Both the position numbers and the translations under genes were made by a program. A DNA stretch of 64,000 nt from an uncultured Flavobacteriales bacterium. GTDB taxonomy: Bacteria > Bacteroidota > Bacteroidia > Flavobacteriales_D > Crocinitomicaceae. Positions 2,637-46,383 of the stretch are shown piece after piece. A model generated the notes under the pieces. The model did not search any database and was not told the origin of the DNA. It saw only the letters and a program-made list of their open reading frames with translations. The stretch is taken from the NCBI GenBank assembly GCA_913054135.1, contig CAJXJK010000002.1:186001-250000 (forward strand), read 5' to 3'. The number at the start of each line of letters is the position of its first letter. Positions within the stretch are counted from its first letter, which is position 1.

Positions 2637-2708
2637 ATCCTTCACTTCGACTAAGCTCGGTGAACTCGTAAAGTTTAATTATGGACCCCGAGCGGAACCG
2701 AGGGGCCC
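2637..2708. repeat. REP-like palindrome pair, left copy
   Basis: Two imperfect palindromes of 20 bases, CACTTCGACTAAGCTCGGTG (2643-2662) and CCCCGAGCGGAACCGAGGGG (2686-2705), separated by 23 bases. The second is related to the first in inverted orientation (shared core TCGnCTnnGCTC). The same composite recurs as a direct copy at 3049-3131, with 11 extra bases between the palindromes there. The arrangement resembles a bacterial interspersed mosaic element made of two inverted REPs. It begins 2 bases after the stop of the upstream gene. Confidence 0.8.
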
Positions 2709-2713
2709 ATGAG

Positions 2714-3028
2714 TTATAACTTATAGTTATTATGATGTGTTTCATTTATGCATTCAGAAAGGAGATGAAGCTCATCCAAATCTCCTCGCACTAGAGCCCA
2801 TTTCTTTCTCTGACTCCATCCTTGAATCTGCTTTTCTCGCTTAAAGGCCATTGCGATATGTGAATACTCTTCTGTATAAAGCAATTGAATAGGCCTATAT
2901 TTTTTGGTATAGTTTGCACCCAAACCTTCTAAATGTTCAGAGATTCGTCTAGCCAAATCTATAGTGCTTCCTGTATATAATGTGTCATTATTACAAAGCA
3001 AAATATATACGAACCCTCTCTTATCCAT
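2714..3028 (-). CDS. GIY-YIG family nuclease, small stand-alone form
   Basis: A 104-residue single-domain protein of the UvrC/Slx1-like GIY-YIG superfamily. The signature VYILLCNNDTLYTGST occupies residues 7-22, here VYI...YTG. It is followed by the conserved arginine in DLARRISEH and a downstream KREKQIQGWSQRKKWALV segment typical of the small UPF0213-like group. There is no DNA-binding extension. Both flanks are REP-like palindrome pairs: one ends 5 bases after its stop, the other begins 20 bases before its start. This suggests the gene belongs to the repeat unit, not to the uvrB cluster, despite the shared fold with UvrC. Natural substrates of this subgroup are poorly known. Confidence 0.92.
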   Translation of the reverse strand: MDKRGFVYILLCNNDTLYTGSTIDLARRISEHLEGLGANYTKKYRPIQLLYTEEYSHIAMAFKREKQIQGWSQRKKWALVRGDLDELHLLSECINETHHNNYKL

Positions 3029-3048
3029 AGGTTAAATGTAATTCTTTC

Positions 3049-3131
3049 ATCCTTCACTTCGACTACGCTCAGTGAACTCGTAAAGCTTAATCATGCCCCA
3101 AGAATGGACCCCGAGCGGAGCCGAGGGGCCC
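3049..3131. repeat. REP-like palindrome pair, right copy
   Basis: Palindromes CACTTCGACTACGCTCAGTG (3055-3074) and CCCCGAGCGGAGCCGAGGGG (3109-3128). The first and the reverse complement of the second agree at 14 of 20 positions. At two paired positions (2/19 and 4/17) A-T pairs are replaced by C-G pairs, so base pairing is preserved. An internal TC/TC mismatch is kept in both, as is typical of REP stems. The element sits just upstream of the GIY-YIG gene and could also form its mRNA leader. Confidence 0.8.
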
Positions 3132-45100: not shown

Positions 45101-46383
45101 TGTCCATTTTCATTTCCCAATTTGACAATTTTTAAGTCGTAGTTCATTTCGCTTTTTCTGATTAGCGGTTTAAACCTCATTTGAAAGATATCGCCTCTCC
45201 AACTACCGCGCTTAACTACAAAATTATTTTCTATAAAATCAATACTCACCTCATCATCATTCGTATTTATTGGTTTTCCCAAATTAAAAACAGAACTTGG
45301 ATAGATTATACCATTAACGATAACATTATCTGGTGTTTTGTAGATATCTGTGCCTCCAAATCCAGGATATCCATCCGAACAGAAATAGAAAACACCATCT
45401 TTAAATGCAGGAGAAAATTCATCTTTATCGGTATTGATATCCTTTAATGGATCCAATTGCAAAGTTTTAAAGTCATCTGAAAGTTTAGCTACAAAAATGT
45501 CCTTATTACCGTTTCGAGTAGAAACAAAATATAGCAATCTCTCTTTCTCTAAATAAAAGCAATCGGCCGCAAAACTTCCATCATTTATTTTATCATCCAA
45601 CAATTGCATTTCAGACCATTTCTTTCCATTTTTCTTAGAGACGAACAAATCTTTCCCAGAACTTAAAAATCCTACAGACTCAGACTCAAATTGAAGCTTG
45701 AATTGCTTTTCAAATGATTTCACATTTTTTTTCTTCCATTTTGCCTTCTTCAAAAAATACTTACTCCATCCATCATTTTCAAAAACATAGAAGTCTGTTT
45801 CATTGTTTGCGGTTGAATAAAACGGCAATGTATCAAGAAGATATGCATTTGGTTTCCAATAATTATAATCACCAATAATCGCTAAAGAACCTAAGACTTT
45901 TTCGTAATCATCAACGTCATAAGGAAATGCTTCTTCATACTTGCCATGATCAACATTACCAAAGAATTTTTTGAAGTGTTTTGCATTGTGTTTCACATAA
46001 CCATATTCTCCCATTCTGAATCCCTGTTCAAACATTAGAAAATATACATGAGCCTTTTGTTCAGTATGAAAATCAATTCCACTATTTAAGAAATAAAATG
46101 CCGAATCTATCTTATTCTCTTCGAGCATAATTTTGCCCAAAAAAAGTTGAGCTTCAGTCAAGGCAAAACTTGTATTAATGGCTTCTTGTAAGCTTCTTTT
46201 TGCTTGATTTATTTTACCATGAGCATAGTATTCGCATGCCTCATTATAAAAAGGTAATGCCAATTTTTGAGTTGCAACATTACCTGTCGGATGCTCTGGT
46301 TCTGAATGTGGCTCTTGTGCACCTAAATGGTTTGAGAAGAATGTAAACAGGACAACAGTTAATATCAGCTTAATACGATTCAT
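45097..46383 (-). CDS. Secreted TPR plus PD40 (WD40-like) protein
   Basis: A 428-residue protein with a signal peptide from the ATG at 46383 (MNRIKLILTVVLFTFFSNHLGAQ). TPR-like helices lie at about 30-140 (FYNEACEYYAHGKINQAKRSLQEAI), followed by a PD40-type beta-propeller segment (about 230-400) with VGFLSSGKDLFVS, LYFVSTRNGNKDIFVAKL, DEFSPAFKDGVFYFCSDGYPGFGGTDIYKT. The same TPR-PD40 order occurs in PorE-like T9SS proteins, but the OmpA-like C-terminal domain is absent. It is followed by a coupled membrane-protein gene and preceded by a clear promoter. Confidence 0.75.
   Translation of the reverse strand: MNRIKLILTVVLFTFFSNHLGAQEPHSEPEHPTGNVATQKLALPFYNEACEYYAHGKINQAKRSLQEAINTSFALTEAQLFLGKIMLEENKIDSAFYFLNSGIDFHTEQKAHVYFLMFEQGFRMGEYGYVKHNAKHFKKFFGNVDHGKYEEAFPYDVDDYEKVLGSLAIIGDYNYWKPNAYLLDTLPFYSTANNETDFYVFENDGWSKYFLKKAKWKKKNVKSFEKQFKLQFESESVGFLSSGKDLFVSKKNGKKWSEMQLLDDKINDGSFAADCFYLEKERLLYFVSTRNGNKDIFVAKLSDDFKTLQLDPLKDINTDKDEFSPAFKDGVFYFCSDGYPGFGGTDIYKTPDNVIVNGIIYPSSVFNLGKPINTNDDEVSIDFIENNFVVKRGSWRGDIFQMRFKPLIRKSEMNYDLKIVKLGNENGQ

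Follow-up and report, generated by a model that had tools for sequence, protein, structure and literature searches.

The small GIY-YIG nuclease encoded in the window, which is the whole 64-kb stretch of DNA analysed here (G000:C2:186001-250000, from a genome of 4.05 Mb in 24 contigs), is very probably the cognate hairpin nuclease of the repeats on either side of its gene, and the two would form a repetitive extragenic palindromic (REP) system that operates without a RAYT. The association between such hairpins and nuclease genes is real, general in this subfamily and beyond chance. A first-pass annotation of the window had placed the gene between two direct copies of a palindrome-pair element and had proposed a REP system with a GIY-YIG enzyme in the place of a RAYT. 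Its coordinates and spacings were right, and each unit does consist of two imperfect palindromes in opposite orientation, with opposed cores on the minus and plus strands (Table 1). The direct repeat has two parts, D1 (63 nt, 83% identity, ungapped) and D2 (28 nt, 96% identity). All four hairpins carry a G at position -7, and the closing pair of the left outer hairpin, L-A, is a C.A mismatch.

Table 1. Repeat units, hairpins and nuclease gene in the window (classes are defined in the text).
Feature	Positions	Strand	Remarks
Left repeat unit	2637-2708	plus	head-to-head hairpin pair; ends 5 nt past the stop codon
Hairpin L-A	2641-2664	minus	core 2647-2658 GAGCTTAGTCGA, one base off class I; 5/6 pairs; G at 2665 (minus)
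Hairpin L-B	2684-2707	plus	core 2690-2701 GAGCGGAACCGA, one base off class I; 5/6 pairs; G at 2683
GIY-YIG nuclease gene	2714-3028	minus	104 aa, stand-alone
C-terminal tail, residues 91-104, SECINETHHNNYKL	2717-2758	minus	CxNxS/T motif; position counted from the translation
Right repeat unit	3049-3131	plus	same hairpin pair; 11 nt longer than the left unit; starts 20 nt before the start codon
Hairpin R-A	3053-3076	minus	core 3059-3070 GAGCGTAGTCGA, class I; 6/6 pairs; G at 3077 (minus)
Hairpin R-B	3107-3130	plus	core 3113-3124 GAGCGGAGCCGA, class I; 5/6 pairs; G at 3106

The nuclease gene lies beyond a 681-aa ORF, which we read as uvrB from its translation, and a 142-aa ORF. PF01541 was the sole Pfam family matched by the 104-aa protein at E <= 0.001 (65 bits against a cut-off of 22.6), and PF01797, the tyrosine Y1 transposase family that characterises RAYTs, was not found in it at that threshold. 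The protein has the domain and the catalytic Tyr, Arg and Glu of the GIY-YIG superfamily: Y8, Y18, R28 and E65, together with G20 and H32, are invariant in both alignments (31 and 32 rows). An AlphaFold2 model (mean pLDDT 88.9) gives a confident GIY-YIG fold, and its confidence is low in the C-terminal tail, a candidate for the part that recognises the hairpin loop. Sequence matches in the PDB at E <= 0.1 were limited to the UPF0213 proteins BH0048 and EF2693 (1zg2, 1ywl), and structure comparison found that Slx1, HIGLE and UvrC resemble the model with Z of about 5 to 7. The enzyme has the same fold as the UPF0213 proteins, Slx1, HIGLE and the N-terminal domain of UvrC; that other fold families did not appear in these comparisons is given no weight here. 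We know of no UPF0213, Slx1, UvrC or HIGLE domain that serves as a REP-associated enzyme. Slx1 differs further in acting with Slx4 on branched DNA, according to PDB entry titles.

The anatomy of the hairpin was derived from the flanks of relatives, with GAGC-N(2-6)-GTCGA as a first core, and other loops in the same frame were seen in the flanks that lack this core. Most flanking hairpins follow a common plan: the stem is made of about 6 pairs, the closing one usually Y-R, after which GAG stands on the 5' strand and YCGA on the 3' strand, with an apical part between them. Class I is GAG-C-GNA-G-Y-CGA, class II is GAG-C-YT-G-Y-CGA and class III is GAG-G-NN-C-Y-CGA, and class IV has a longer apical hairpin whose first base is T and whose last base before YCGA is A or G. 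By the chemistry of nucleic acids on which the G.A reading of GAG/CGA rests, GAG and YCGA would form two sheared G.A pairs and then a G-C pair, with the Y bulged out.

The stem of class I covaries. In a sample of 222 unique sites from 59 loci, picked by core and not by stem, Watson-Crick pairing at pairs -1 to -6 was 98, 92, 83, 86, 73 and 63%, compared with 71, 55, 35, 44, 56 and 42% after shuffling; each of these pairs exceeded all 500 shuffles, and each position showed two to four pair types. Position -7 is a G in 97% of class I, 84% of class II and 94% of class III hairpins, and pairing at this position is not above chance. The stem therefore tends to end at a fixed place, next to the conserved G. 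Predicted folding was of less use: single hairpins folded weakly better than shuffles (mean z of -0.81 for class I, -0.74 for class II and -2.02 for class III), for the units of the window, folded as single-stranded DNA, shuffled sequences did equally well (z 0.33 to -0.15), and the two strands differed little. Stable folding was therefore dropped as proof of the hairpins. An RNA reading of the repeats was likewise dropped because the one Rfam match fell below the gathering score and did not lie over them.

A descriptor of the family (GAG, 4-50 nt and YCGA, with at least 5 of 6 flanking positions complementary) matched the whole window five times. Four of the matches are the compact hairpins around the nuclease gene, and the fifth, at position 46050 and with a long insert, looks spurious. 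The bare 12-mer TCGACTACGCTC alone is hardly remarkable, since its four matches at up to two mismatches were equalled in 3 of 100 shuffles of the window. Across the window genome, the CCCC/GGGG palindrome at up to two mismatches occurs twice, both times at the nuclease locus (control 0), and the CACT/AGTG form has six exact occurrences, two of them at that locus; at up to three mismatches the latter form gave 11 matches, which is not above its reversed control (10). For TCGACTNCGCTCAGT there are seven occurrences, and for the class I core plus its closing pair there are 11 (control 0 for each). In this genome the hairpin appears to be a low-copy repeat and not an abundant REP, and the small set of this species may be old or newly arrived.

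Two further observations concern the same genome. Copies of the TCGACT.CGCTCAGT core at G000:C2:138106-139844, 272778 and 280283 (L001, L002, L004, L005) adjoin mutually similar sequences, which look like the ends of a repeated gene family. A second GIY-YIG gene (L010, G000:C3:67773-68021) has an in-frame stop codon and class II hairpins on both sides that point at the interrupted gene; it is probably a decaying nuclease.

For comparison across genomes, relatives were picked from genome contigs by protein sequence alone, and the best 80 of 108 were kept. The first core lies within 300 bp of the gene in 54 of these 80, at a density of 4.2/kb within 250 bp as against about 0.1/kb beyond 1 kb. 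The set was then taken to 114 loci, made up of the 80 named relatives and the window together with four paralogues from the window genome and 29 loci found in genomes of the order; they are not fully independent, since some come from one species or from close ones. When an exact stem of 5 or more pairs was required, the descriptor gave 311 near matches at 91 of the 114 loci (4.62/kb), compared with 51 beyond 1 kb (0.085/kb), and nine altered descriptors used as controls gave 0-5 near matches. Some family hairpin was present within 350 bp at 100 of 113 loci, the window and its own paralogues included. The proposed non-RAYT REP system is supported in this respect, and the possibility that homologues of the gene usually lack flanking repeats can be rejected for the subfamily.

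The descriptor and the tail motifs described below were written after the discovery loci had been viewed. For the descriptor we therefore also used 59 held-out loci, none of which had contributed to it. Ordered by falling relatedness, 9/20, 3/19 and 0/20 of them were flanked, with 19 near matches and none beyond 600 bp. The last of these sets, made up of GIY-YIG proteins of other subfamilies, served as a negative control, and the family hairpin was also absent at all 14 small GIY-YIG loci fetched from 10 repeat-rich genomes that have no strong relative. The flanking hairpins thus depend on the subfamily.

The hairpins are also arranged with respect to the gene. Of 169 nearest hairpins, 137 point at the gene, so that, as in the window, these genes have the placement between two inverted REPs that is characteristic of RAYTs. 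Median distances of the nearest hairpin from the coding match are 53 nt upstream and 31 nt downstream. Neighbours on the same side within 120 bp (n=263) are head-to-head in 104 cases, tail-to-tail in 40 and in one direction in 119. Single-hairpin arrays of constant period occur beside the GIY-YIG gene at L030 (about 41 bp), L100 (about 69 bp), L126 (about 54 bp) and L038 (about 91 bp), and L030 (G179:C1:1112496-1113572) has 14 cores within 400 bp, counting its two sides together.

Hairpins are present on both sides at 71 of the 114 loci, and the nearest ones converge in 48 of those 71. These counts would suit an arrangement in which the gene and its two hairpin units constitute one whole mobile element with the hairpins as its ends, and the uvrB-ORF142 loci of three congeners (L136-L138), which yielded no descriptor match, would agree with it. 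We nevertheless regard a whole element as unlikely. The downstream sequence of the congeners looked unalignable, and their flanks are too rearranged to show an exact empty site. Moreover, the number and spacing of flanking hairpins differ between loci, an unsystematic look met no gene-plus-hairpin copies with shared outer boundaries, and no relative is encoded in the 10 stretches of viral contigs that matched the peptide pattern. A phage origin was dropped as well, given this result and the 23 matches in phage records, all of which were below 60% identity.

The C-terminal tail of the protein corresponds to the apical loop of the hairpin. Tails with CxNxS/T go with C-GNA-G loops, AYRD with G-NN-C, AKKxF with long loops and NYTQ with C-YT-G. 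In a table of 113 loci (L012 was left out), each assigned its majority hairpin class and 13 having no scored hairpin, tail and class agreed where both were scored at 58/58 CxNxS/T loci for class I (3 more unscored), 20/22 AYRD loci for class III (the other two being ties with class II, and 2 more unscored), 7/7 AKKxF loci for class IV (4 more unscored) and 4/4 NYTQ loci for class II. Tails outside the four motifs accompany class II in eight cases and class I in one, with four unscored; consequently, 8 of the 12 loci with mostly class II hairpins have a tail that fits none of the motifs. The CxNxS/T motif, which was written after 31 rows had been viewed, is found in 60 of 61 class I proteins versus 1 of 53 others when L089 and L110, two loci with longer core variants and CxNxS/T tails, are set to class I by hand, and in 58 of 59 versus 3 of 55 when they are not. 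The one remaining exception, L103, has the hairpin GAG-C-GCGA-G-C-CGA, a loop closed by C-G and close to class I.

Tail motif and hairpin class could both be assigned at seven held-out loci, with agreement at every one (four class IV, two class II, one class I), although the AYRD, AKKxF and NYTQ motifs were written after all rows and the held-out output had been viewed. Among the held-out AKKxF tails, 12 of 16 had no scored hairpin, and one class IV hairpin stands beside an unrecognised tail. With a looser core and a distance of 400 bp, L169 and L181 of the same set lack the class I tail despite a class I-like core.

Hairpin class might merely follow the protein tree, and the tree of full proteins does cluster the classes (18 changes versus 48 when shuffled; the class I label by itself needs 7). 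L056, L087 and L049 nevertheless have class I tails and hairpins although they fall outside the main class I group of that tree. In a tree of the catalytic domain with the tail removed and L009-L012 left out, class I requires 25 changes versus 36 when shuffled, a value reached in 0 of 500 shuffles; this tree is poorly supported, with one independent tail-class pair on supported branches. When Flavobacterium is compared with other genera, domains of one class are no more alike (identity 0.725) than domains of different classes (0.728); inside Flavobacterium the values are 0.830 within and 0.784 across. The loose fit of class I to the domain tree and the equal identities between genera weaken the explanation by descent. 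Because the catalytic domain tracks class I only loosely, we place the emphasis on the tail. That the tail changes together with the hairpin loop suggests, from these sequence comparisons, that the enzyme recognises the repeats.

Copies away from the gene were counted in 30 of the 80 named genomes, hand-chosen to span the classes, with cores beside the gene excluded. Class I cores had a median of 16.5 where the gene was of class I (n=14) and of 1 where it was of class II (n=8) or of class III (n=6), and the two class IV genomes had 14 and 65. Copies of a genome's own class exceeded those in other genomes for class I (p 0.0017) and class III (p 0.0016); class II copies were not tied to the class of the gene in these 30 genomes (p 0.48). 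In one genome labelled Spirochaetota, a Treponema MAG (contig locus L061, G201), the nuclease is of class I and flanked by hairpins, and class I cores number 50, by horizontal transfer or because the genome is misbinned.

The first-pass annotation had held that palindromes abundant in genomes without the gene would speak against a functional link. Across the order, 44 genomes have a strong relative (E <= 1e-26), and 20 of them hold at least 5 class I cores; of the 155 without one, 24 do (odds ratio 4.5, p 7e-5), and when cores beside the gene are removed the counts are 18/44 and 24/155 (odds ratio 3.8, p 0.0006). Repeat-rich genomes without the gene therefore do occur, at a lower rate than among genomes with it. 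Inspection of 14 of the 24 found four in which GIY-YIG is present only in ORFs of at least 220 aa, of which G017 is given as 100% complete and G164, G178 and G182 as 85-88%. The repeats can therefore outlast this nuclease or do without it. In genus code g51, G119, G164, G178 and G182 have 29 to 92 class I cores each and no subfamily nuclease at E <= 1e-8; their repeats are either orphans or served by another enzyme.

Repeats that are numerous in the absence of the subfamily could mean that the hairpins are mobile repeats spread by another enzyme, with the GIY-YIG genes as passengers or targets in repeat-rich intergenic spaces. G017, which has two long GIY-YIG frames only, offers some encouragement for such a view, in that its hairpin cores are opposed at distances of 40-50 bp. 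We consider it improbable all the same, given that the less related GIY-YIG genes examined are unflanked (0/20, and 0/14 small loci in repeat-rich genomes), that the nearest hairpin converges on the gene, and that tail type predicts loop class, which would not be expected of a passenger. The least credible alternative is that the hairpins regulate the gene itself, as terminators or as mRNA hairpins limiting the amount of a harmful nuclease, and are maintained by autoregulation: the coding match is indeed within tens of bases of them, and the left unit of the window follows the stop codon at 5 nt, but there are copies elsewhere (381 class II cores in the actinobacterium Plantibacter, and at least 10 class I cores in 13 of the 14 named genomes with class I genes), and head-to-head pairs and arrays occur on either side of the gene.

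A cognate hairpin nuclease of this kind has a reported counterpart. Ssn enzymes are said to be site-specific single-strand nucleases of the GIY-YIG superfamily that go with the NTS/dRS3 repeats of Neisseria (reportedly described in Nature Communications in 2025). In Neisseria, Ssn reportedly binds and cuts dRS3/NTS, several Ssn homologues are said to cut their own matching sequence in single-stranded DNA, and incoming single-stranded DNA that carries the repeats can reportedly be cut as well. The 'independent solution' suggested by the first-pass annotation would accordingly be known in part already. As in the Ssn case, a small stand-alone GIY-YIG protein is accompanied by a hairpin repeat, which here flanks the gene at most loci examined and in several genomes has many copies. 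Unlike the Ssn repeats, the hairpin is differently tagged, its stem measures about 6 bp and encloses a GAG/YCGA internal loop, and it exists in several apical-loop classes that are matched by the C-terminal tail. By the reported features of Ssn, the likeliest place for the window system is as a branch of that kind.

RAYTs, according to the available text of Nunvar et al. 2010 (PMC2817692), are IS200/IS605-type tyrosine transposases (PF01797) whose gene lies between inverted palindromes. The present loci share with them, as far as that text describes, a nuclease gene between inverted palindromes of a type found elsewhere in the genome, an unpaired 5' tag, and flanking palindromes that differ between orthologues yet stay palindromic (PMC2817692). 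They differ in having a GIY-YIG enzyme (PF01541) and no GTAG tag. The system would work like a RAYT-REP system and is not one, because its enzyme belongs to another family.

A further resemblance is offered by the CGTC-tagged REPs, dRS3 of Neisseria among them, which the available part of the survey by Di Nocera et al. 2013 (PMC3733652) describes as apparently lacking a dedicated transposase. Both kinds are 5'-tagged hairpins found mostly as head-to-head dimers, and the CGTC-type ones differ in a CGTC, TGTC or CCTC tag, a stem of 8-9 bp and a loop of 4-5 nt. In the window hairpins the -7 G stands in a context other than CGTC, and the stem has 5-6 pairs. A plasmid collection contained 42 records with a relative. 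At 15 loci chosen from it, CGTC/TGTC hairpins lay within 350 bp of the gene in six (15 sites, 1.43/kb), compared with two sites elsewhere (0.06/kb); the CGTC-type hairpins inspected at plasmid loci have no GAG/YCGA internal loop. At two Sinorhizobium loci, hairpins of similar form but tagged CCTC were read by eye, and among further loci both alphaproteobacterial ones had CGTC-type hairpins and one cyanobacterial locus had none. CGTC-type REPs thus stand beside a GIY-YIG gene at 10 of the 14 alphaproteobacterial loci read, with three same-genus pairs (Shinella, Sphingobium and Sinorhizobium) among the ten. On Planktothrix plasmid p1 (L270), a GIY-YIG gene has no CGTC-type hairpins and is flanked instead by a type IIL restriction enzyme gene (MmeI) on one side and by DISARM drmA on the other.

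If the enzyme is the cognate nuclease of its repeats, the repeat would fold in single-stranded DNA so that a short stem, immediately preceded on its 5' side by the G, carries a GAG/YCGA internal loop topped by a small apical hairpin. The catalytic GIY-YIG domain may then read what the hairpins share, namely a stem of fixed length, the conserved G beside it and the GAG/YCGA loop, and the apical loop, C-GNA-G in the window, may be read by the C-terminal tail. The predicted cut is a nick in one strand of the hairpin, whether extruded or in single-stranded DNA. Nicking could also cut incoming single-stranded DNA that carries the hairpins, as Ssn reportedly does, but its most likely consequence would be that hairpin pairs are copied to new places. 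Copying of REP pairs has been proposed for RAYTs, in the available text of Nunvar et al. 2010 (PMC2817692). The copies found genome-wide lead us to favour the copying of hairpin pairs over the screening of incoming single strands.

A search of mostly open-access literature found no paper joining GIY-YIG with 'repetitive extragenic palindromic', and the link may be in print elsewhere; searches with the repeat letters and combined terms, judged by titles and the beginnings of abstracts, brought up nothing that we recognised as bearing on it. As far as the literature was searched, the hairpin plan, the tail-loop correspondence and the CGTC REPs beside alphaproteobacterial GIY-YIG genes are new, and the Ssn paper may contain some of this.

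On balance, we lean towards a broader view in which short GIY-YIG proteins, alongside RAYTs, form a second and widespread class of REP partner. They would serve GAG/YCGA hairpins in Bacteroidota and other phyla as well as CGTC-tagged REPs, with a swappable C-terminal tail of 5-10 residues that reads the apical loop in a compact tail-loop code. The GIY-YIG link provides a candidate enzyme for the CGTC-tagged REPs, a question left by the 2013 survey in the part available (PMC3733652), and the tail-loop correspondence predicts the preferred hairpin from about ten residues. If this is true, these proteins would make up a natural set of hairpin nucleases whose specificity can be read, and a genome's nuclease could be used to find its repeats.
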